50,203 bases of DNA from a bacterium. Lineage in GTDB: Bacteria > Vulcanimicrobiota > Vulcanimicrobiia > Vulcanimicrobiales > Vulcanimicrobiaceae. The notes beneath the pieces were generated by a model. The model searched no databases and was not told the origin of the DNA. It saw nothing but the letters and a program-made list of their open reading frames with translations. The stretch lies in assembly GCA_021805775.1 (NCBI GenBank), contig JAJZED010000017.1, forward strand, positions 1 through 50,203. The letters run 5' to 3'. Shown here one piece after another: positions 4,720 through 27,186 of the stretch. Position 1 is the first letter of the stretch. Each line of letters starts with the position of its first letter. Made by a program: the position numbers and the translations under genes.

Positions 4720-7700
4720 CTAGCTAAATAGTCGCTCGATATCGGAGGCGTCGAGCGGCAGCGGAGCACTCGATGCATCGGCAAATTGGCTTGCGGCCAG
4801 CTCTCCCTTGCGCGCTTGCAATTCGAGAATTCGTTCTTCAACGCTTCCTTCGGCGATGAGCTTGTAAACGAAAACGTGCTGCTCTTGACCGATGCGGTGG
4901 GCGCGGTCGGTCGCCTGGCGCTCCACCGCCGGGTTCCACCACGGATCGTAATGGATGACGGTATCGGCGGCAGTTAAGTTGAGCCCCGTACCGCCGGCCT
5001 TGAGGCTGATAAGGAAGAGCGGCACTTCACGATTTTGAAAACGTTTGACCGGGGTTTCGCGGTCGCGCGTCGCGCCGCGAATCTCGACGAATTGCATGTC
5101 GCGTTTCGCCAACTCGGGTTTGATAAGATCGAGCATCGACGTAAATTGAGAGAACAGCAATATCCGTCGCCCGTCGGCGATCAAACTTTCGAGCATTTCG
5201 AGTAGCGCATCGAGTTTTTGCGACTCCTTAACGCTATGAGCCGCATCCAAATCGAGCAACCGCGGATCGCAGCAGACCTGCCGAAGTTTCAGCAGCGCGT
5301 CAAGCACAACGATTCGACTACGCGCGAGGCCACGTTTTGCCACTTCATCTCGTACGCGCTTATGCATGGCCAAGCGAATCGTTTCATAGAGGTCGCGCTG
5401 AGCTCCACCAAGCTCGACGCGATGGACGATCTCGGTTTTCTCGGGAAGATCTCGTGCAACGTCTTCTTTGGTGCGCCGCACGAGAAATGGATGCAAGCGT
5501 TTTCCTAATGCGTTCCGCCGTAACACGTCGCCACGTTTTTCAATCGGCGTTCTAAAAAATCGTGCAAAAGAGCTCCGCGTTCCCAAAAGACCAGGCAACG
5601 CGAAGGCATAGATCGACCACAGTTCCTCTAAATTATTTTCGATCGGCGTGCCGGTCATCGCTATGCGCTGCTCGGCATGGAGTTTTGTAGCGGAGATTGC
5701 CGCCTTAGCGCGAGGGTTTTTGATTGCCTGCGCTTCATCGAGCACGGCAATCGACCACTCGCGTGCGTGGAGCTCATCGGCATCACGAACCAATAGGGCA
5801 TACGTGCTTAACACGATGTCGGCATTTGGAATTTCGTCGAAAAAACGTGCGCGGTCGGGCCCGCTTAGCGTGAGAACGCGCAATTCCGGCGTAAATCGCG
5901 CGATCTCGGCGCGCCAATTCGGAACGACGCTCGTCGGAGCAACGATCAGCACCGGTTTCTTCAGCCGTCCCGCAGCCTTTTCCATCGCCACGTGCGCGAG
6001 CAACTGCACCGTTTTTCCAAGACCCATATCGTCGGCGAGGACGCCGCCGAAACCGTGCGCGCGCAGAAGTTGCAGCCAAATAACGCCTTCGCGTTGATAC
6101 GGGCGCAATTCGGCATGAAAATTTGTCGGCAGAACCGGAGGACGCGCGGCAAGGTTTTTCAATCCGTCGATAAACGCGCCAAACGCCTCGGTGACGGCTC
6201 CCCGCCGAAGCACGGTTCCATCGATTTCGGTAAGCGAAATGGCACGCGCGGCGGGAAGAGCGATCCGCTCGCCCTCGACTAACGCATGCTCGCCGTCAAA
6301 GAGATCGACGAGCGTCGCCAGAACGCGAGCGACGCGCGCCGGTGGAAGCGCGACGTACGCCCCGCTCGGCAGGCGACCGAAGATCGGCTCGCTACGCGCG
6401 GCAATGGCGACCAGATCGTCGTTCGACGATATGCCATTCGCCGCGAGTGCCTCGACGATCACCGGCAAAAGAGGAATGCGCTCGCCATCTACCTCGATAC
6501 CCAGATCGACTTCAAACCACCCCGTCCGGTGCGGGTCCGGTTCTATATCGGCGTCCCAGTCTTCGGAAAACTCGACGATCTCGTGCGGAAACTCCGCATC
6601 GATCTCCACCTTCCAGCCTTCGTTACGTAATATCGGGGCGGTATAACCGAGAAATCGTGCCCATGCGTAGGCGCTTTCTTCGGAGCCGAGCCGGAAAATT
6701 GTACGCCGTTCCTCGCTATCGAATTCAAAGGAGCGCGGAACCGGCACGAAGCCAAGCGCGTGCAGACGCTCCTGCGCTCGCTCCTCGTACGCACGTTGCC
6801 GAGGCCAAATCGCCGCGCCGTCGCCTTCGGCGATTCGAAATTCCGCGTCGCCGCTCTCCGGCGAAATGCGATAATCGCCATAGGCGAATGCCAACTCGGC
6901 CGTCGTCGTCGCCCGTCCGTGGCCAAGATGTAGAACCGGAGTCGGGTCGCGCTCGATCACGCGGGCGTCGAGCCGGGCTTGCGGACCATCGATGCCGGTC
7001 GCTGAAAAAACGCGCCGCAAAGCCACCTGGACGCGCTTTGCATGCTCGGCCGTCATCGCCGGCGCCCCGGCAAGAACCGCCGCGAGATCCGGCGCGAGAT
7101 CGCTCTGTGCGCGGCCGGCGACGTTGAGATCGGGATCGACATACCAAAGCGGCATCGAGCCGACAAGCACGCTACCGGGACGACCGGCGAGGTGCGGTCG
7201 CTGCCTTTCGTCATCATCGATGCGCCATGCTATATGCGCGTCGACGATGTCCTCGCGCCGAATCACTTTATTGTCGAGGCTCTGCCAGTGCACTCGTTCG
7301 CTCTCCAGTAGCAATTCGAGCAACGTGCCCAAAATCGTGGGAGAGAGCGCATTCATCCCGCCGAGCAAGCCGCTCGCCCCAACGAGTCGACCGATCGTGC
7401 GATCGAGCGGCTGCAAATGCTTCGCGCTCCCCGCTGCGAGGTGTTGGAGTTCGTATCGACGCGCGCTTCCTAAAGCGCCGCTGCGGAGCATCGGCACGAC
7501 GAACGCCTGGAGCGAGAAGGATGGAACGAAGAATCGCTCCTCTATGGATACTACGTAGCGAACGTGCTCTCGCTGCAAGTCGCGTCGCTTACTTGCCGTT
7601 ACGGCATGAACGTTTTCGATCCAGCTTTCGACGGCACCGTCGGCCGCATCGCGCTTGCGCCCGGTCGATCGCGCTGCGATCGCAGCGAGGGCGACCGCCG

Positions 7701-7944
7701 CCGCGTGCTTACAATTGCTCCCCACCGGGCAGGAGCAGCGACCGAGCAACCTCGTGCTGCCGTTGGCGCCGACCGCACGCACGTGAACCGAGTAAGGCTG
7801 CTGCTGAGTACCGATAACGCGAGCGTCGATCGCCTCGGCACCGATCTCCAGTTGCAACACTCGGCGACGCTCGAAATAATCGCGACCCCGCGTGAGCGTG
7901 GGCGCGTCGAACGATGCTTGTAGTACGGCGAGGTCGAGATGCAT
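4720..7944 (-). CDS. SWIM zinc-finger SNF2-family helicase (RapA/HepA-type)
   Basis: A 1074-residue DNA translocase. The N-terminus carries a SWIM zinc finger (C70-x-C72-x5-C78-x-H80), typical of bacterial SNF2 proteins. The middle 500 residues are a family-specific region. The motor begins with a Q-motif-like LRPYQREGVIWLQ, the Walker A segment ADDMGLGKT near residue 640, Walker B as DEAQ near 735, MTGTPIENN, and the C-terminal helicase lobe with ILLFSQFTSMLD, GGTGLNLTAADTVIHYDPWWNP and the arginine-finger segment ATDRAHRIGQ. All motifs look intact. Roles known for the family include RNA polymerase recycling, DNA repair and phage defence. It starts 30 bases after the hydrogenase small subunit on the same strand, with AGAGG eight bases before the ATG. 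Confidence 0.95.
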   Translation of the reverse strand: MHLDLAVLQASFDAPTLTRGRDYFERRRVLQLEIGAEAIDARVIGTQQQPYSVHVRAVGANGSTRLLGRCSCPVGSNCKHAAAVALAAIAARSTGRKRDAADGAVESWIENVHAVTASKRRDLQREHVRYVVSIEERFFVPSFSLQAFVVPMLRSGALGSARRYELQHLAAGSAKHLQPLDRTIGRLVGASGLLGGMNALSPTILGTLLELLLESERVHWQSLDNKVIRREDIVDAHIAWRIDDDERQRPHLAGRPGSVLVGSMPLWYVDPDLNVAGRAQSDLAPDLAAVLAGAPAMTAEHAKRVQVALRRVFSATGIDGPQARLDARVIERDPTPVLHLGHGRATTTAELAFAYGDYRISPESGDAEFRIAEGDGAAIWPRQRAYEERAQERLHALGFVPVPRSFEFDSEERRTIFRLGSEESAYAWARFLGYTAPILRNEGWKVEIDAEFPHEIVEFSEDWDADIEPDPHRTGWFEVDLGIEVDGERIPLLPVIVEALAANGISSNDDLVAIAARSEPIFGRLPSGAYVALPPARVARVLATLVDLFDGEHALVEGERIALPAARAISLTEIDGTVLRRGAVTEAFGAFIDGLKNLAARPPVLPTNFHAELRPYQREGVIWLQLLRAHGFGGVLADDMGLGKTVQLLAHVAMEKAAGRLKKPVLIVAPTSVVPNWRAEIARFTPELRVLTLSGPDRARFFDEIPNADIVLSTYALLVRDADELHAREWSIAVLDEAQAIKNPRAKAAISATKLHAEQRIAMTGTPIENNLEELWSIYAFALPGLLGTRSSFARFFRTPIEKRGDVLRRNALGKRLHPFLVRRTKEDVARDLPEKTEIVHRVELGGAQRDLYETIRLAMHKRVRDEVAKRGLARSRIVVLDALLKLRQVCCDPRLLDLDAAHSVKESQKLDALLEMLESLIADGRRILLFSQFTSMLDLIKPELAKRDMQFVEIRGATRDRETPVKRFQNREVPLFLISLKAGGTGLNLTAADTVIHYDPWWNPAVERQATDRAHRIGQEQHVFVYKLIAEGSVEERILELQARKGELAASQFADASSAPLPLDASDIERLFS

Positions 7945-15271: not shown

Positions 15272-18200
15272 TCACTTTATTGGCAACCCCAGCGGTTTGA
15301 TCACCGTCGCCAGGTAACGATGGTATGCATTCATCGCCGTAGCAAAGCGTACATCGAGATGCCTGCGGTACGCAAGCAAGGACGCCGTCGGCGGCGAGTT
15401 TGCACCGAGGAAGAAGCCGCCGGGCACCGCTTCTCGCAATGCGCCCGGACGCTGGATGGAATCCTCGTCATTCTGATAGTTTGCAGTAAAAGTCGCAAAG
15501 ATTGCATCGCGCCGCTTCATCGCTGCCGAGAGAGCCGCCAAACGCGGAGCGTTATCGGCCGACCGAGCAGAGGCATACGCCTTGTTCAACGCGATTTTCT
15601 GGGAGTCGAGTGCATTGAGCACCGCATTGATTTTCCCCGACATGTCGAGGAAGTGCTTGCCGATCCGATACCCGGCGCGCATCTGTGCGAGCGTATATGG
15701 GCTCTGCGGATCGGGCATCACCCGGAACGACTGCGTGTAGGTATGGCCGTTCAGAATTATCCGAGCGGTGTAGCGGCCCGGAAGCGCCGTGAGCCCTTCC
15801 TTCGGTCCGCGATACGCCTTTCGGGCCGCACCCATCCAGCGGGTGACGCCGTTTTCGTGAAAATCCCAAACGACGCGGTTAATGCCGGCTTTATTTGGAA
15901 CGAGCGAGATCTTCTTCTTGCCGATCTTGACGCTCCCCGAGATCGTCCGTACGACGCGCCCACGCGCATCGACTACCTGGACGACCGGGGCTTTTTTCTG
16001 CGGGGCCTTTTGGTAGAAGTCGAAGATCGCCCCGTAGGGTGGGTTTTTTGCCGCATAGCGCGTGTAGAGATTCTCATCGTTGCTATGCATGATGTATTCG
16101 TAAGCCGTGCGCACCGGGAAAAGCATCGCTCCACGCGCTTGCGCGGCCGAGAGATTTTGCAGCGCCGCGATGTCGTCGAGAATCCAGATCGCACGGCCAT
16201 GCGTACCGATCACCAAATCGTCGAAGGTCGATTGAATGCGAATATCGCGCACCGAGACGGCTGGAACGTTCAAGGAGAACGGACTCCAGGAATTGCCGCC
16301 GTTGAAGCTGATGAAGAGGCCCTCTTCATTGCCCGCAAAGACCAGGTTTTTATTGTGGATATCGGGGCGAATCGTCCGCGTATAGATATCGCCGGGCAAT
16401 CCGTTCACGATCTTCGTCCACGATTTGCCATAGTTGTGCGTGACGTAAAGGTAGGGCGCGTAATCGCCCATGCGATGGTCGTCGAACGAAGCGTACGCCG
16501 TCGCCGGATCGAGCGGGGAGGGGGCAACGGTTTCGACGCGCGCGAATTCCGGCGCGCCTTTCGGCGTGACGTCGCTCCAATGTTTCCCGCCGTCGCGGGT
16601 GAGTTGCACGAGTCCGTCGTCGGTTCCGACCCATATCTCGCCGCTTGCAATCGGCGAGCCTTCGATATCGAGAATCGTGTCGCTATACTCCGCGCCCGAG
16701 ACATCGTGTGCCAGCGGGCCGCCCGCCGGCATCTGATGGGCTTTGATATTCCGCGTGAGGTCCGGGCTGATCGGGTGCCACGTTTGGCCGAGATCGGTGC
16801 TCTGAAACACGACGTTGCCGCCGTACCACAGAATGTGTCCGTTCCACGGCGCAAACGCAATCGGCGAATCCCAATTGAAACGGTACGGCCGTTTATTGAG
16901 ATCGAAAATCGAGAGCCCCGGTTCGAAGTACGGGTTGATAAAGCGATAGAGGCGTGCGTGACGATTGAATACGTTCACGTATCCGTCCTCGAGATCGGCA
17001 ACAACGTCGTTCGAGTCGCTCGGATCCGGAACCGCCCACATGCCGTCTCCGCCGACGACTTGAAACCAACGGCGGTTTTTAATTCCTTGCGGATCTCGCG
17101 AATTCGACGGGCCGCACCAGCCGCTGTTATCTTGCCAGCCTCCGCAGACGAGATACGGATTGCCGTTGGAGAGACCGACGTGGTAGACCTGACCGATGGG
17201 AAGATTGCGCGCGAAGGACCATGCTTTACCACCATCGACCGTTAGCGCATACCCGCCATCCTCACCGACGATAATGCGGTTCCCGTTATTCGGAGCGATC
17301 CAAATGGCGTGATAATCGACGTGCACGCCTTTCGCAATCCGTTTGAATTTCTTGCCGCCGTCGGTACTAACCGAAAGCATCTCCGAGACGCCGTATACGC
17401 GGTCGGCGTTTTTGGGATCGACTGCAATATGGGTAAAATAGAATGGACGTTGATCGACCAACGTATTGTCGGTCATCATTTTCCAGTGCGCGCCGGCATC
17501 GTCGCTCCGCCAAAGAATGCCGCCCTTTGCTTCGATTAAAGCGTAGACGCGCGACGGCTCGCTCGGCGCGATCGCCAAACCGATACGCCCTTCGTACCCG
17601 GCCGGGAGGCCATTGCCGACGAGTTTCGTCCAGCTCTTTCCGCCATCGATCGATTTATAGATGCCGTCGTTGGGGCCGCCGGAATGAAAGGTCCACGGTT
17701 TGCGACGGAACTGCCACATCCCGGCATAGACGATATTCGGATCGGCCGGATCCATCGCAATGTCGCTCGCGCCGCTACTGGGGCCGATGTAGAGCGACTT
17801 CGTCCAGCTTTTCCCCCCGTCGAACGTAACGTACACGCCACGGTGAACGGAGTCGGCATACGGGTCGCCCGATGCGCCGACGACGACGTGCTGCGGATTT
17901 TTTGGATCGATGGCGATGCGTGAAATTTGGCGGGTCAGGGCGAGCCCCACTCGCGCCCACGTTTTTCCACCATTCGTGCTTTTATACAGGCCCGTGCCGA
18001 ACGAGACATCGTTGCGCGGATTGCTCTCGCCGGTGCCGACCCAGAGCACATTTTGATTGGTGGGGTCGATCGCGACCGCACCGATCGCTCCGGTCGGTTC
18101 TTTCGTGAAAATCGGTTTCCAGGTCGCGCCGCCGTTGGAACTTTTCCAAACGCCGCCGCCTGCGGTGCCGATCACATAGAGATCGGCGTTCTGTGCCGTT

Positions 18201-18346
18201 CCCGCTACCGAAGAGACGCGGCCGCCGGCGATCGCCGGACCGATCTCGCGCCATTTCATTCGCGCGTACGGAGCGGTCGCCGCCGCCGCCGGAAGAATAC
18301 CTCCGGCGACAAGCAGCGCACCCAACGCAAGAAACCGTATTTTCAC
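15272..18346 (-). CDS. Exported VPS10/sortilin-like beta-propeller protein, paralogue B (1024 aa)
   Basis: Same architecture as paralogue A: signal peptide (about 23 residues ending AAAA), an opening MKWREIGPAIAGGRVSSVAG, the GTGESNPRND block, 11 Asp-box-like motifs in the same order, and the C-terminal sandwich and helical tail (FRVMPDPQSP, then FATFTANYQNDEDS). The GTG start at 18346 is fixed by GGAGG seven bases upstream. It lies 25 bases after paralogue C, so the two are a tandem pair in one transcript. The function is unknown; propellers of this kind bind proteins or glycans at the cell surface. Long antisense reading frames over this gene are composition artefacts. Confidence 0.85.
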   Translation of the reverse strand: MKIRFLALGALLVAGGILPAAAATAPYARMKWREIGPAIAGGRVSSVAGTAQNADLYVIGTAGGGVWKSSNGGATWKPIFTKEPTGAIGAVAIDPTNQNVLWVGTGESNPRNDVSFGTGLYKSTNGGKTWARVGLALTRQISRIAIDPKNPQHVVVGASGDPYADSVHRGVYVTFDGGKSWTKSLYIGPSSGASDIAMDPADPNIVYAGMWQFRRKPWTFHSGGPNDGIYKSIDGGKSWTKLVGNGLPAGYEGRIGLAIAPSEPSRVYALIEAKGGILWRSDDAGAHWKMMTDNTLVDQRPFYFTHIAVDPKNADRVYGVSEMLSVSTDGGKKFKRIAKGVHVDYHAIWIAPNNGNRIIVGEDGGYALTVDGGKAWSFARNLPIGQVYHVGLSNGNPYLVCGGWQDNSGWCGPSNSRDPQGIKNRRWFQVVGGDGMWAVPDPSDSNDVVADLEDGYVNVFNRHARLYRFINPYFEPGLSIFDLNKRPYRFNWDSPIAFAPWNGHILWYGGNVVFQSTDLGQTWHPISPDLTRNIKAHQMPAGGPLAHDVSGAEYSDTILDIEGSPIASGEIWVGTDDGLVQLTRDGGKHWSDVTPKGAPEFARVETVAPSPLDPATAYASFDDHRMGDYAPYLYVTHNYGKSWTKIVNGLPGDIYTRTIRPDIHNKNLVFAGNEEGLFISFNGGNSWSPFSLNVPAVSVRDIRIQSTFDDLVIGTHGRAIWILDDIAALQNLSAAQARGAMLFPVRTAYEYIMHSNDENLYTRYAAKNPPYGAIFDFYQKAPQKKAPVVQVVDARGRVVRTISGSVKIGKKKISLVPNKAGINRVVWDFHENGVTRWMGAARKAYRGPKEGLTALPGRYTARIILNGHTYTQSFRVMPDPQSPYTLAQMRAGYRIGKHFLDMSGKINAVLNALDSQKIALNKAYASARSADNAPRLAALSAAMKRRDAIFATFTANYQNDEDSIQRPGALREAVPGGFFLGANSPPTASLLAYRRHLDVRFATAMNAYHRYLATVIKPLGLPIK

Positions 18347-18371: not shown

Positions 18372-21300
18372 TTAGTGAACGGTACCGATGCCTGCGATCG
18401 GTTTCAAGCCGGCTGCCTTCATTTTTGCTTGCAGCGCGGGAATCGTACCGACGAAAGCGTTGTATTGCCCGATCGCTCGAGCGTATTTTCCGTCGAGGCG
18501 ATGCGCGAACGCTAGCGTCGGCGGCGTGATGAGGCTCTGAGCGGCGAAATAGAGCTGCTCGAAATCTTCGCGCAGCGCGCCCGGGCGCTCGATAGAGTCT
18601 TCGTCGTTTTGATAGTTTGCAGTCAAGATGTCGAACATACCGCGACGCGTGCCGGAAAGCGCGGCGATTGCAGGAAGAACGGCGGTCGCCTTCTTCGCGG
18701 TTGCCGCTTTTTGTGCCGCCGCGAGTTGCTTCTTCAATGCGTCGAGATTATTGAGCATCGTGTCGATCTTACCGAACATCGTTTCATACTTTATCGCAAA
18801 AGCGAAGGTTCGGTTGTAATCGGCCTGCGTGAACTTCGAGCGCGGATCGGGTTTTACGACGAACCGACGCGTGTAGGTTTTACCGTCGAACGTAAGCTTC
18901 GCGGTATAGCTACCCGGCGGCACCGTCGGCCCCTCGGGGAAACCTTGATACGATTTCTTCGCCGCGCCCTTCCAGAGAGCCACGCCGTTGGTGCCCCAGT
19001 CCCAGACATAGCGGTTAAGGCCGACGGCGTTGGGCAAGCGCGGCTCCGCTTTACCGGCAAACTTATGGGTGCCGGAGATCGAACGCATCAACTGCCCGCG
19101 CGCGTTGAATATTTGCAGAGCGGGCGGCGTTTTTGCATTGGCGGATTTCTGATAGTAGTCGAAGATAACGCCGTAGGGCGGGTTATTGCCGACGAAATCG
19201 GTGTAGGTTCCTTCATCGTTTTCGTGCAGCGTATATTGGTAGGAAACGCGCACCGGGAAGAATCGACCGCCGGCAGCCTCCGCGCGAGCGAGCTGTTGGA
19301 TCGGCGTCATATCGTCCATAATGTAGAGCGAGCGCCCGTGCGTCGCAATAACGAGATCGTCGAACGTCGGTTGCATGCGAATATCGCGAACCGAAACCGT
19401 CGGCATACCGTTCTTGAAGCTCTTCCAGCTCTTGCCGTCGTTAAACGAGATGAAGATACCGGTCTCGTTACCGAGGTAGAGAATGGACGAGTTTTTGATA
19501 TCGGGGCGGATCGTCCGAACGAAGACATGCTTCGGAAGATTGCTCGCAATGGAGCTCCAAGTTTTTCCGTAATTATGGGTTACGAAAACGTACGGTTTAT
19601 AGTCGCCGGAACGATGGCGATCGATCGAAACATACGCCGTTGCCGCATCGAACGGCGACGGCGCGACCGTCTCGACGCGGCCGTAGGGGGGAACGCCGGG
19701 GATCAGCATCTTCTTCCAGTGCTTTCCACCGTCGACGGTGAGGCCGATGACGCCGTCGTCGGCGCCGGTCCAAATCTCGCCTTTGCGCACCGGAGAGCCT
19801 TCGATATCGAGCAGCGTATCGCTATATTCCGCTCCCGAGACGTCGTGGGTGATCGGACCGCCCGATGGAATCTGGTGCGATTTCATATTCAGGGTGAGAT
19901 CGGGGCTAATGACCTTGAAGCTCTTGCCGCGATCGGTGCTTTGGAAGACGACGTTGCCGCCGACCCAACCGATATGCGGGTTCCAGGGCGCGAACGCTAT
20001 CGGCGAATCCCAGTTAAAGCGATATTTGCTCGTGCGCAGATCGTATTGCTCTTTAACTCCTTGAAGGTAGGGTTGCGCCGACCACTGGTCTTGCGTTTTC
20101 TTATTCCAGACGACAACCGAGCCGTTCTCCGAATCGCTCCAAATATAATTCGGATTGGACGGATCCGGTACGGACCACTCGCCGTCGCCGCCGACGCTGA
20201 CTTTCCAATATTTGTTAAGTAGCCCACTGGGGTCGAGCGAGTTCTCCGGAGCGCAAAACGCATTATTATCCTGCAAGCCGGCGCAGACTTCGTAAGGATT
20301 CTCATTGGAGAGCCCAACGTGATAGATTTGGGCGATCGGAAGGTTCTTCGAGAAGAACCAGTTCGCACCACCGTCGACGGTGAGGGCGTATCCGCCGTCT
20401 TCACCGAGCATGATGCGCGAAGGGTCGTTCGGAGCGATCCAAATCGCGTGGTAATCGACATGCACGGAGAGGGCGATCGGGTGGAAGGTCTTGCCTGCGT
20501 CGGTGGAGACCGAGGTCAATTCTGAAACAGCGTAGACCTTCTTCGGGTTTTTCGGATCGACCGCGATGTGCGTGAAATAAAATGGGCGTTGGTCGACCAG
20601 CGTATTATCGCTGACCATCTTCCAACTCTTACCGGCGTTCTCGCTACGCCAAAGAATTCCGTGCGCGGCTTCGATCAGCGCATACACGTAGTTCGGATCG
20701 CTCTGTGAGACTGCGAGCCCGATGCGCCCGGTGATGCCGTGCGGTAAACCATTCCCGACGAGTTTCGTCCAGGTCTTTCCTCCGTCGATCGATTTATAGA
20801 GCCCGTCGTTCGGGCCACCGCTGCGGAAGGTCCACGGTTTGCGCCGAAACTCCCACATGCCGGCATAGATGACGTTCGGATCGCTCGGAACCATCGCGAG
20901 ATCGCTCGCACCGCTGTCGGGCGCGAGATAGAGCGTCTTCTTCCAGCTCTTACCGCCGTCGAACGTGACGTAGACACCGCGATGAACGCTATTCCGGTAC
21001 GGGTCGCCGAACGCGGCGACCACGACGTGATTGCCGTCTTTCGGATCGACGACGATGCGGGAGATCGAACGGACGCCCTTGAGGCCAACCCGTTTCCACG
21101 TGATGCCGCCGTTCGTCGATTTATAGAGACCGTCGCCGTAACTGACGTCGTTGCGAGGATTGCTCTCGCCGGTTCCGACCCACACGGTATTATTGTTGCT
21201 GGGGTCGATGCTCACGGCACCGATCGCCGCGACTTTTTGATTCGCAAAGACCGGCGTCCAGGTGAAGCCGCCGTTGATCGTCTTCCACACTCCGCCCCCG

Positions 21301-21569
21301 GCCGAGCCGACGTAATAGAGCTTCACGTTCGTTGCCGAACCGGCGACCGAGGTAACGCGCCCGCCGCCTGCGGCGGGGCCGATCTCGCGCCAGTGAACTT
21401 GCTTGTACGGCGGCGGGGGAGTCGGCGTGGGCGTAGGCTTTGGAGTCGCCTTCGCCGCGCTCTTGGCGGGAGGAGCGCTCGTCGCGCCCGCGGCGCGCGC
21501 GAATGATGGAAGGCTAAGTGCAAAAAGGGCTGCGGCGGCGAGCGCCCAGCGTATAGGTGTGCGAGACAA
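18372..21569 (-). CDS. Exported VPS10/sortilin-like beta-propeller protein, paralogue C (1065 aa)
   Basis: Third member of the family with the same 11 Asp-box motifs and the same C-terminal regions (VKPDPRSKFTQADY, then ILTANYQNDEDSIERPGALRED). It differs by a Pro/Thr/Lys-rich linker between the signal peptide and the first propeller strand. I place the start at TTG 21569, because AGGAGG sits exactly six bases before it and the product opens with a short basic stretch and a clean signal peptide. An in-frame ATG at 21596 has no ribosome site. Transcription of the C-B pair probably starts in the gap after the terminator-like hairpin at 21625-21650. Confidence 0.83.
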   Translation of the reverse strand: MSRTPIRWALAAAALFALSLPSFARAAGATSAPPAKSAAKATPKPTPTPTPPPPYKQVHWREIGPAAGGGRVTSVAGSATNVKLYYVGSAGGGVWKTINGGFTWTPVFANQKVAAIGAVSIDPSNNNTVWVGTGESNPRNDVSYGDGLYKSTNGGITWKRVGLKGVRSISRIVVDPKDGNHVVVAAFGDPYRNSVHRGVYVTFDGGKSWKKTLYLAPDSGASDLAMVPSDPNVIYAGMWEFRRKPWTFRSGGPNDGLYKSIDGGKTWTKLVGNGLPHGITGRIGLAVSQSDPNYVYALIEAAHGILWRSENAGKSWKMVSDNTLVDQRPFYFTHIAVDPKNPKKVYAVSELTSVSTDAGKTFHPIALSVHVDYHAIWIAPNDPSRIMLGEDGGYALTVDGGANWFFSKNLPIAQIYHVGLSNENPYEVCAGLQDNNAFCAPENSLDPSGLLNKYWKVSVGGDGEWSVPDPSNPNYIWSDSENGSVVVWNKKTQDQWSAQPYLQGVKEQYDLRTSKYRFNWDSPIAFAPWNPHIGWVGGNVVFQSTDRGKSFKVISPDLTLNMKSHQIPSGGPITHDVSGAEYSDTLLDIEGSPVRKGEIWTGADDGVIGLTVDGGKHWKKMLIPGVPPYGRVETVAPSPFDAATAYVSIDRHRSGDYKPYVFVTHNYGKTWSSIASNLPKHVFVRTIRPDIKNSSILYLGNETGIFISFNDGKSWKSFKNGMPTVSVRDIRMQPTFDDLVIATHGRSLYIMDDMTPIQQLARAEAAGGRFFPVRVSYQYTLHENDEGTYTDFVGNNPPYGVIFDYYQKSANAKTPPALQIFNARGQLMRSISGTHKFAGKAEPRLPNAVGLNRYVWDWGTNGVALWKGAAKKSYQGFPEGPTVPPGSYTAKLTFDGKTYTRRFVVKPDPRSKFTQADYNRTFAFAIKYETMFGKIDTMLNNLDALKKQLAAAQKAATAKKATAVLPAIAALSGTRRGMFDILTANYQNDEDSIERPGALREDFEQLYFAAQSLITPPTLAFAHRLDGKYARAIGQYNAFVGTIPALQAKMKAAGLKPIAGIGTVH

Positions 21570-21582
21570 CGAGAACCTCCTC
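21570..21582 (-). promoter_or_regulatory. Ribosome binding site that fixes a TTG start for paralogue C
   Basis: Minus strand reads AGGAGG, then TTCTCG, then TTG. Perfect consensus with six-base spacing, better than any site before the upstream in-frame ATG at 21596. Confidence 0.75.
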
Positions 21583-21614
21583 GAGAAGAGCGTCATGATT
21601 CTTGCCCGGAAAGT

Positions 21615-21650
21615 CCTAGAAGGAAGGCCGCGCTCCTGCGAGCGCGGCCT
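21615..21650 (-). terminator. Terminator-like hairpin after the PYP gene
   Basis: Perfect 11-bp stem AGGCCGCGCTC / GAGCGCGGCCT with a four-base loop (21625-21650). On the minus strand it is followed by a pyrimidine-rich TTCCTTCT. It sits 37 bases after the stop of the PYP gene and before the propeller pair, so it likely separates the two transcripts. Confidence 0.6.
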
Positions 21651-21686
21651 CAAATATTGTTCAAAACTTGGCGGATTGCGGCAGTT

Positions 21687-22058
21687 TTAGGCAGACATCC
21701 GCGTGATCAGCACGTCCACGTCGTCGCGGCCCGCTTTGTGCACGAAGGTAATATGCACGCGCTGCGCGCCCCAAGCAAAGCGAAAGGTATAATCGAAAGT
21801 TTCGATACCGCCGCTCGACTTCGCGGCGAGAGTAGTGAAACGCCCCTGGAATTCAGGGTTCGCAGTGCAGGGCGCAACCTCGGTGAAGAAATTTCGGCCT
21901 ACTTGCGACCGCTGATCGAGGCGCGCCATCTCAGCCTCGGTACGGTTATAGCGAAGAATCTTGCCGTCGAGCCCTAAGGTGATAACGCCGACGGGCAACC
22001 CGTCGATCTCCTGTGCGCTCATTGCTTCGACGCGTTCGAGCAGATCTTGATCGTGCAT
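21687..22058 (-). CDS. pyp: Photoactive yellow protein homologue (PAS-fold blue-light receptor)
   Basis: A 123-residue single-domain PAS protein that aligns along its whole length with Halorhodospira halophila PYP with a constant offset of five. Cys64, in the VAPCT context, equals PYP Cys69, which binds p-coumaric acid. Tyr37 equals Tyr42 and Glu41 equals Glu46, the two residues that hydrogen-bond the chromophore phenolate. NFFTEVAPCTANPEFQGRF and FDYTFRF match the family core. Position 50 is Ala rather than Thr, and position 52 is Leu with Arg one place earlier. The ATG is preceded by AGGAGG at seven bases. No tyrosine ammonia-lyase or coumaryl-CoA ligase gene is in the window. It follows crcB by 132 bases on the same strand. 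Confidence 0.9.
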   Translation of the reverse strand: MHDQDLLERVEAMSAQEIDGLPVGVITLGLDGKILRYNRTEAEMARLDQRSQVGRNFFTEVAPCTANPEFQGRFTTLAAKSSGGIETFDYTFRFAWGAQRVHITFVHKAGRDDVDVLITRMSA

Positions 22059-22090
22059 GAATGCTCCTCCTGAAACGATGATCTCTACGC

Positions 22091-22190: not shown

Positions 22191-22580
22191 TTATCGGATC
22201 GCCAAGCGCACGAGTACTTGCCCGGCAAAGGCAGCAAGCACGCCGATCGCCACGCTCCCAATGGCGTACATCGCCGCGGTTCCAAGCGCGCGATCGCCGA
22301 CGAGGGTCACGGTGTCGAGCGCGAACGTTGAGAACGTCGTATAACCGCCGAGGACGCCGACGGCGAGGAAGAGACGGAGTAACGGCGCCGTTCCAAGCGA
22401 TGAGGTCGTTGCGAGTTCGGCGACGACCCCGATGAGCAGGCTGCCGGATATATTGATGAGCAGCGTGCCGAGTGGGAAACCGGGCCCGAAACGCGCGACG
22501 ACGAGAAAATTCACGACGTAGCGTAACGCCGAGCCGAGGCCACCGCCTAAGGCGACGGCGAGGATCGCTTTCAGCCCCAT
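22191..22580 (-). CDS. crcB: Fluoride channel CrcB/Fluc
   Basis: A 129-residue, four-helix membrane protein. It carries the Fluc family marks: GGGLGSALRY near the start, GTLLINISGSLLIG with the conserved pore Asn, and GVLGGYTTFSTF with the Thr/Phe residues of the fluoride pathway. Fluc works as an inverted-topology dimer that lets toxic fluoride leave the cytoplasm. It starts directly after the DUF190 gene and is under the same fluoride riboswitch. Confidence 0.95.
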   Translation of the reverse strand: MGLKAILAVALGGGLGSALRYVVNFLVVARFGPGFPLGTLLINISGSLLIGVVAELATTSSLGTAPLLRLFLAVGVLGGYTTFSTFALDTVTLVGDRALGTAAMYAIGSVAIGVLAAFAGQVLVRLAIR

Positions 22581-22913
22581 TTACGCGTCCGCCACCGAAC
22601 CGAGGCGCAGCATATCGACCGCTTCGAGCGTGAGTAGCCCCTCCGCGAGGCTCGCGCGGACGACGGGTAGGATCGCGGCGATCTGTTCGGCGCTCGCGAT
22701 CACTTCGATGACGACCGGGAGGTCGGTTGAGAGATCGAAGACGCGCGCGGAATGCACGATGCCTCGGTTTCCGAAACCCTCGATCCCCTTAAAGACGCTC
22801 GCGCCGCCCACCCCCGCCGCTCGAAATCGCTCCAGGAGCGCGGCGTAGGCCGGGCGATCGTCGAGGCGATCCCCTTCATTGAGATAGACGCGTAGGAGTT
22901 GCATGCGTGTCAT
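22581..22913 (-). CDS. DUF190 protein, fluoride-operon companion of CrcB
   Basis: A 110-residue PII-like ferredoxin-fold protein: LLRVYLNEGDR at the start, then AAGVGGASVFKGIEGFG with the turn typical of DUF190, a central DLPVVIEVIASAEQI strand-helix, and a C-terminal VDMLRLG. Proteins of this family often sit beside crcB and are thought to be regulatory. There are two ATG choices, 22913 and 22904; the second gives the usual MQLLRVYL opening. The gene is adjacent to crcB without a gap and downstream of the fluoride riboswitch. Confidence 0.88.
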   Translation of the reverse strand: MTRMQLLRVYLNEGDRLDDRPAYAALLERFRAAGVGGASVFKGIEGFGNRGIVHSARVFDLSTDLPVVIEVIASAEQIAAILPVVRASLAEGLLTLEAVDMLRLGSVADA

Positions 22914-24685: not shown

Positions 24686-26942
<2,257 letters not shown>

Positions 26943-26945
26943 CTA

Positions 26946-27186
26946 GGCTTCGCGCCCTTCCCGATGCGTCCTCGAACCGGTGCGGACGCGCATGCGACTC
27001 CGTAAGTGACGGATTACACCTATCTGTTTGAAGTCGCTATTGTAAATCTTTTGTTAGAAATTCGGAGGATACTCAGGTTCCAAATACAACGTAAGTCGGA
27101 GCAGCAGGTACCTTTTTCTGTTCCTTCCTCTCCGTATCTGCTGCACTGCTTGCTACACGCGACGCTCGTTAGTGGAGGATCCTCGT
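26946..27186. other. Intergenic region between divergent thiC and the lipoprotein gene
   Basis: Distinctly less GC-rich than its neighbours between about 27005 and 27120. It probably holds divergent promoters. A possible thiC promoter on the minus strand reads TTTACA, about 17 bases, ATAGGT near 27020-27045. I see no gene or repeat here; a short open frame at 27006-27203 has no family resemblance. Confidence 0.4.

Follow-up and report, generated by a model that had tools for sequence, protein, structure and literature searches.

The window, the 50,203-nucleotide stretch of DNA analysed here, carries a gene that belongs to the photoactive yellow protein (PYP) family, has an intact chromophore site and is under selection, in an Eremiobacterota genome from which dedicated genes for chromophore synthesis are absent. 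The initial annotation of a full-length PYP homologue with an intact chromophore site is borne out by family models, phylogenetic tree, fold and the conserved triad; judged by its sequence, the gene is a genuine PYP. PYPs are already on record for the phylum, and the gene is of modest novelty in itself. The window is the whole of contig C19 of its genome (2.59 Mb, 95.9% complete).

Identification of the gene as a PYP

The open reading frame is intact and runs from ATG to TAA, encoding 123 aa (21687-22058). It lies on the minus strand, which the initial annotation did not give, and is preceded by CAGGAGGAG, a good ribosome-binding site.

21687..22058, minus strand: pyp (type a), single-domain photoactive yellow protein homologue (ORF, TIGR02373, PDB, AlphaFold, dN/dS)
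22064..22072, minus strand: CAGGAGGAG, ribosome-binding site ahead of the ATG of pyp (sequence; A/G-rich site kept in the genus)

The comparison of PYP with general PAS models, which had been suggested as a check, gave 84.5 bits for TIGR02373 (photo_yellow; E 6e-24, residues 5-117) and 24 bits for Pfam PAS and PAS_4, whose gathering scores were reached. The equivalog cut-off of TIGR02373 (143.05 bits) was missed by the window PYP and by every other Eremiobacterota PYP copy in 149 genomes of the phylum. These two observations would fit a generic PAS domain that resembles PYP through convergence. However, TIGR02373 retrieves only 20% of PYP homologues, and Pfam mostly divides PYPs between PAS and PAS_4 (PMC9664959). 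In addition, the PYP score lies far above the PAS scores, and both tree and fold group the protein with PYP. A generic PAS domain is ruled out by model scores, tree and fold, and convergence is extremely improbable.

PYP chains of the PDB matched the protein with E values from 7e-19 to 3e-18. A tree was calculated from 52 PYP sequences, none of them clade B references, together with 13 PAS domains of generic type encoded in the window's own genome. It separated the PYPs from the 13 PAS domains with a support of 92/94 and placed the window PYP inside the starred clade of 21 Eremiobacterota PYPs. A phylogeny had been named as the test that could refute the annotation, and in it the gene groups among the PYPs, apart from the generic PAS domains. 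Given the length of the PAS branches, the tree is not decisive by itself; model scores and fold concur. The AlphaFold model (pLDDT 85.7) superimposes on PYP crystal structures with a TM score of 0.87, and the top 40 fold matches in the PDB are all PYP or PYP derivatives. The best of these had an E value of 1.2e-11, the first ordinary PAS domain one of 3.7e-6.

Orthologues of the window PYP share 65-99% identity with it, and dN/dS against seven of them ranges from 0.010 to 0.051, which indicates strong purifying selection. An Acidobacteria match (L016) was discarded, its genome being without any match to the PYP model. The initial statement that PYPs are rare no longer holds: published surveys give 789 and 984 homologues from many phyla and name Ca. 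Eremiobacterota among these.

Residues of the chromophore pocket

The codons of the three site residues, and of one residue that sets this lineage apart, are located as follows.

21867..21869, minus strand: codon of Cys64 (= Hhal Cys69, where the chromophore thioester forms; alignment, invariant in 15/15 type-a orthologues)
21936..21938, minus strand: codon of Glu41 (= Hhal Glu46; alignment)
21948..21950, minus strand: codon of Tyr37 (= Hhal Tyr42; alignment)
21771..21773, minus strand: codon of Trp96 (= Hhal Met100), a change specific to the lineage, at the position tied to chromophore recovery (Trp in 15/15 type-a and 27/44 Eremiobacterota PYPs)

The offset to Hhal numbering, initially described as constant, is 5 at Tyr37/42, Glu41/46 and Cys64/69, so that the description is right for the sites it named; beyond an insertion of one residue at about residue 82 the offset is 4. 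The VAPCT and NFF motifs are both present as described, and the length of 123 aa agrees with the 125 aa given for comparison (family near 125 aa). In Hhal numbering, none of the 15 orthologues departs from Tyr42, Glu46 and Cys69, and Ile31, Phe62, Val66, Ala67, Pro68, Thr70, Phe92, Tyr94 and Phe96 are likewise invariant in them. The PYP pocket residues Ile31, Phe62, Val66, Ala67, Pro68 and Phe96 are thus all present in the window PYP, and the triad is intact in 41 of the 44 Eremiobacterota PYP copies.

Other positions differ. The family-conserved residues Met100, Trp119, Asp34, Pro102 and Phe28 are altered in the alignment, and the unusual features of the window PYP are Trp100, Phe98 and Asp119; Phe at the position of Tyr98 occurs in 41/44 Eremiobacterota PYPs. 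Alanine at Thr50 (A45) and leucine at Arg52 (L47) had been read correctly but taken as changes expected to alter the photocycle. Ala50 and Leu52 are in fact the consensus of 984 PYPs (PMC12826048), and so are not unusual. Met100 has been proposed as the catalyst of chromophore re-isomerisation (PMC9664959), and for this reason an altered recovery rate is predicted for Trp100: we infer that dark recovery is probably altered and likely slowed.

Gene neighbourhood and transcription

The neighbours named in the initial annotation, crcB upstream and two propeller genes downstream, were confirmed.

22581..22913, minus strand: DUF190 gene, upstream of crcB (PF02641)
22191..22580, minus strand: crcB, upstream neighbour coding for a fluoride channel (TIGR00494, above cut-off with 90.4 bits; PF02537)
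21626..21649, minus strand: perfect 10-bp stem-loop 3' of pyp, with a CAGGAG-type loop and no T-run (comparison of relatives)
18372..21596, minus strand: first exported sortilin/BNR beta-propeller gene (PF15902, PF02012)
15272..18346, minus strand: second exported BNR-type beta-propeller gene (homologous to the first; NF045728 below cut-off)

The first propeller gene probably starts with the ATG at 21596 and not with the TTG at 21653, and the stem-loop is located between pyp and this ATG. It is kept in the genus, occurs with an altered stem sequence in other genera and was not called by the terminator scan, which returned only sites at chance level; it is a probable transcript end or processing site of pyp. 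The gene also has its own conserved leader in the window genus, and it probably forms its own transcription unit. A scan for sigma-70 promoters gave nothing, and no fluoride riboswitch was found. The only riboswitch is an ordinary TPP element (26839-26946, minus strand) upstream of thiC, which scored barely over the gathering score.

The common gene order is lytic transglycosylase-like gene, DUF190, crcB, pyp, propeller, propeller, and it extends over five genera. The order crcB-pyp-propeller occurs in 12 of 13 loci, and pyp adjoins a propeller gene in all 13, which might indicate a functional unit of DUF190, crcB, pyp and propellers, with PYP in control of fluoride export or of the exported propellers. 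Against this, crcB lies next to the propeller without pyp in four relatives (G055, G060, G086 and G087), one of which (G087) belongs to the same genus as the pyp-bearing G088. In the exceptional locus of G080, pyp and propeller are adjacent but crcB is on another contig. In the window genus, the separate leader of pyp and the stem-loop between pyp and propeller also speak against joint control. The junction without pyp shows that the block existed before pyp entered it or dropped out of it, and that it tells little about function. Control of crcB or the propellers by PYP is thus very unlikely, and a light-regulated operon, which would call for constant linkage, was rejected on account of the four relatives. 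The setting is a shared chromosomal neighbourhood that exists also without pyp.

Chromophore supply

Genes for chromophore synthesis had been reported as missing near pyp. Neither an aromatic lyase nor an AMP-binding enzyme is encoded on the window contig, and for tyrosine ammonia-lyase (TAL) and a PYP-type ligase the absence extends to the whole genome. The suggested genome search for TAL and coumarate ligase yielded only hutH and no dedicated coumarate ligase. This hutH is the one PF00221 aromatic ammonia-lyase gene of the genome (TIGR01225 664 bits, above cut-off). It lies in a hut cluster, and the selectivity motif of its product is S-H, as opposed to H-L in the lyase of the canonical plasmid operon pyp-pcl-lyase of Indioceanicola, which served as positive control; a TAL hidden elsewhere in the genome was thereby rejected. 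Second copies of aromatic lyases in G085, G105 and G040 were not counted as TAL, as they have a signal-peptide-like start and lack the ASGD-type active-site motif.

The PYP-type ligase model TIGR02372 gave only 40-43 bits in the window genome, similar to matches in 12 of 14 control genomes, so that no candidate stood above background. With the pCL and TAL genes absent, the window genome does not hold the canonical pyp-pCL-TAL operon. It encodes four AMP-binding enzymes, none of the PYP type. One of them, on contig C20, reached 367 bits against a cut-off of 375 in the benzoate-CoA ligase family and adjoins enoyl-CoA hydratase-like and acyl-CoA dehydrogenase-like genes; on account of this score and these neighbours it is the best candidate for the activation of an imported hydroxycinnamate.

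A PYP-ligase-like gene is present in just one of the phylum's 149 genomes, G117, where its 302 bits fall short of the cut-off of 335. This coumarate-CoA-ligase-like gene shares a stretch with pufLM and carotenoid-synthesis-like genes (L154, C266:9000-22000). The assembly of G089, which is 99% complete, has eight PYP matches and no aromatic ammonia-lyase. According to published surveys, just 5% of pyp operons include TAL, and 32% include pCL; the lack of TAL or pCL beside pyp is the rule. As alternative sources of the chromophore, uptake has been suggested in these surveys and histidine ammonia-lyase (HAL) has been proposed as a route to p-coumarate (PMC9664959).

Proposed function

The window PYP is probably a single-domain blue-light sensor with p-coumaroyl bound at Cys64 and a photocycle, whose partner would be encoded elsewhere and whose acid would be imported or arise as a side product. 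Chromophore identity, photocycle and partner are what we infer. The 4-hydroxycinnamoyl (p-coumaroyl) chromophore would be attached to Cys64 as a thioester, and its phenolate would be hydrogen-bonded by Tyr37 and Glu41. Blue light would isomerise the chromophore, Glu41 would then give up a proton, and the protein would open to a signalling state, to be read by a partner whose gene lies elsewhere; beside pyp, no such gene is evident. Since the cell has neither TAL nor a PYP-type ligase, p-coumarate would most likely be imported or formed as a side product of HAL, and a CoA ligase acting generally on aromatic acids, for instance the C20 enzyme, would then activate it. The cultured relative Vulcanimicrobium alpinum moves toward blue light (PMC9758169), and phototrophic relatives have pyp copies beside bchXYZ and hemL; both observations speak for light sensing. 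Points against the proposal are the absence of TAL, a TIGR02372 ligase and a reaction centre from the window genome, the eight PYP matches of G089 in an assembly devoid of aromatic ammonia-lyases, the score under the TIGR02373 cut-off, the altered family-conserved residues and the lack of an evident partner gene beside pyp.

It is also conceivable that the PYP fold no longer senses light via p-coumarate and that Cys64 either carries another acyl or aromatic thioester, for example a urocanate-like, cinnamate-like or CoA-delivered metabolite, or acts in redox sensing, as has been proposed in the literature for some methylobacterial PYPs. The missing TAL and PYP-type ligase, in the window genome as in nearly all PYP-bearing relatives, would agree with this, as would the pocket changes Met100Trp and Tyr98Phe. 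The sole lyase makes urocanate, which is an acrylate like p-coumarate, and paralogue b is found within a carbon-metabolism set (FGGY kinase, pyp, hexose kinase). On the other hand, the full p-coumarate triad and the surrounding pocket are invariant in 15/15 orthologues, PYP bacteria commonly lack TAL, and G117 has its PYP-type ligase-like gene beside photosynthesis genes. Urocanate cannot serve all of these PYPs, as G089 has no HAL. A ligand other than p-coumarate, or a redox function, is unlikely. A wider proposal is less likely than not: a PYP lineage peculiar to this Eremiobacterota family, marked by Trp100, may have multiplied in organisms without TAL and PYP ligase and may use an environmental hydroxycinnamate or a chromophore other than p-coumarate. 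If an environmental hydroxycinnamate were used, the light sensor would depend on phenolics of plants or mosses.

PYP copies in relatives and in phage-like contigs

The window genome contains a second PYP with about 50% identity (G000 C7, L055:5878-10529). The start of its gene overlaps the end of an FGGY carbohydrate kinase gene by 4 bases. This kinase gene lies downstream of a glycerol-3-phosphate-dehydrogenase-like (GlpD-like) gene, and pyp is followed by a 1-phosphofructokinase-like gene; the arrangement is found again in part around the other copies of the genus.

No photosynthetic reaction centre was found in the window genome. Reaction-centre genes are present in 6 of the 149 genomes, five of which also have PYP, and the four genomes with four or more PYP copies are all phototrophs; the statistical tests of PYP copies against phototrophy ignored kinship. 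In G089 (L065:1695-8260) and G094 (L072:1-4190), pyp follows bchZ in a bchXYZ cluster, and in G117 (L070:4875-8759) it follows a bchZ-like gene; hemL comes directly after pyp in G089 and G117. No description of pyp directly after bchZ was found in the literature examined. The pyp of G077 (L085:6021-6752), next to a hemL-like gene, encodes Trp at the position of Cys69 (APWA instead of APCT). In this genome, which is 77% complete, no reaction-centre gene (pufLM) was detected; the PYP is a branch mate. If the cysteine serves light sensing, its loss in a genome without a detected reaction centre is what one would expect. As a single example it possibly reflects the loss of light sensing after photosynthesis was lost, and both decay and a new function are possible.

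Further arrangements were observed in these relatives. G089 encodes a 723-aa PYP-PAS-GGDEF-EAL fusion protein (L064:4643-6814) and an in-frame PYP copy without a short Tyr42-Gly47 segment (L065:6434-6898), due to a deletion or an assembly error. In G118 (L076), pyp (6361-6795) is located just upstream of a methyl-accepting-protein-like frame (7293-7862), which resembles a chemoreceptor gene; this makes the pyp a candidate for the reported blue-light taxis.

A scan of IMG/VR revealed two temperate-phage-like contigs that encode PYPs in which a zinc-ribbon-like pair of CxxC motifs precedes the PYP part at the N-terminus (wider context in L201 and L202).

L199:2261-3339: phage-like PYP locus, IMGVR_UViG_3300044827_000006 (IMG/VR scan)
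L200:2043-3330: phage-like PYP locus, IMGVR_UViG_3300044734_000048 (IMG/VR scan)

Both genes lie directly downstream of an S24-peptidase (CI-like) repressor gene and overlap its 3' end. The neighbours are replication O-like, NinG/Rap and HNH proteins on one contig and ParB, a DNA methyltransferase and an integrase on the other. Both proteins have Phe42, Glu46 and Cys69 and are 37% identical to each other, so that the arrangement of repressor and PYP is not a recent copy. No relatives were found in 50,697 phage records, and no description of the arrangement was found in the literature, judged by title and abstract. The position beside the repressor gene suggests a light input to lysogeny control.

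Implications

With the window PYP comes a group of PYPs that is well conserved, specific to its lineage and naturally equipped with Trp at position 100, a site known mainly from mutants of the model PYP. Two points of the window gene lend themselves to testing, the lack of chromophore genes and Trp100. It sharpens the question of where the chromophore originates in PYPs whose synthesis genes are missing, a question made testable by the cultured phototactic relative V. alpinum. The loci beside bacteriochlorophyll genes or phage repressors would give PYP clear roles, which are lacking in most of the family; these side findings (bchXYZ, Cys69Trp and the phage repressor loci) may matter more than the window gene.

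Comparison with known PYPs

PYPs have already been reported in Ca. Eremiobacterota (PMC12826048), and a PYP of V. alpinum is on record as WPS_26150 (PMC9758169). The accessible parts of these two sources do not give residues, neighbourhood, copy numbers or paralogue groups for the Eremiobacterota PYPs. One PYP is reported there for V. alpinum, in comparison to four in G118, a single-contig phototrophic genome of 3.5 Mb from the window's family.

The PYP of Halorhodospira halophila (PDB 1nwz, 2phy) is 32% identical to the window PYP (125 vs 123 aa). Both are single-domain proteins with the same fold (TM 0.87) and triad. The window PYP differs by Thr50Ala, Arg52Leu, Tyr98Phe, Met100Trp and Trp119Asp, and its genome, unlike H. 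halophila, has no pyp-pCL-TAL operon. The best match among solved sequences is the PYP domain of Ppr from Rhodospirillum centenum (PDB 1mzu), with 40% identity over 100 residues. The LPVG and RYNRTE motifs and the Tyr/Glu/Cys site are common to both. Ppr, however, is fused to a phytochrome and a histidine kinase and has Met100, whereas the window PYP stands alone and has Trp at this position.
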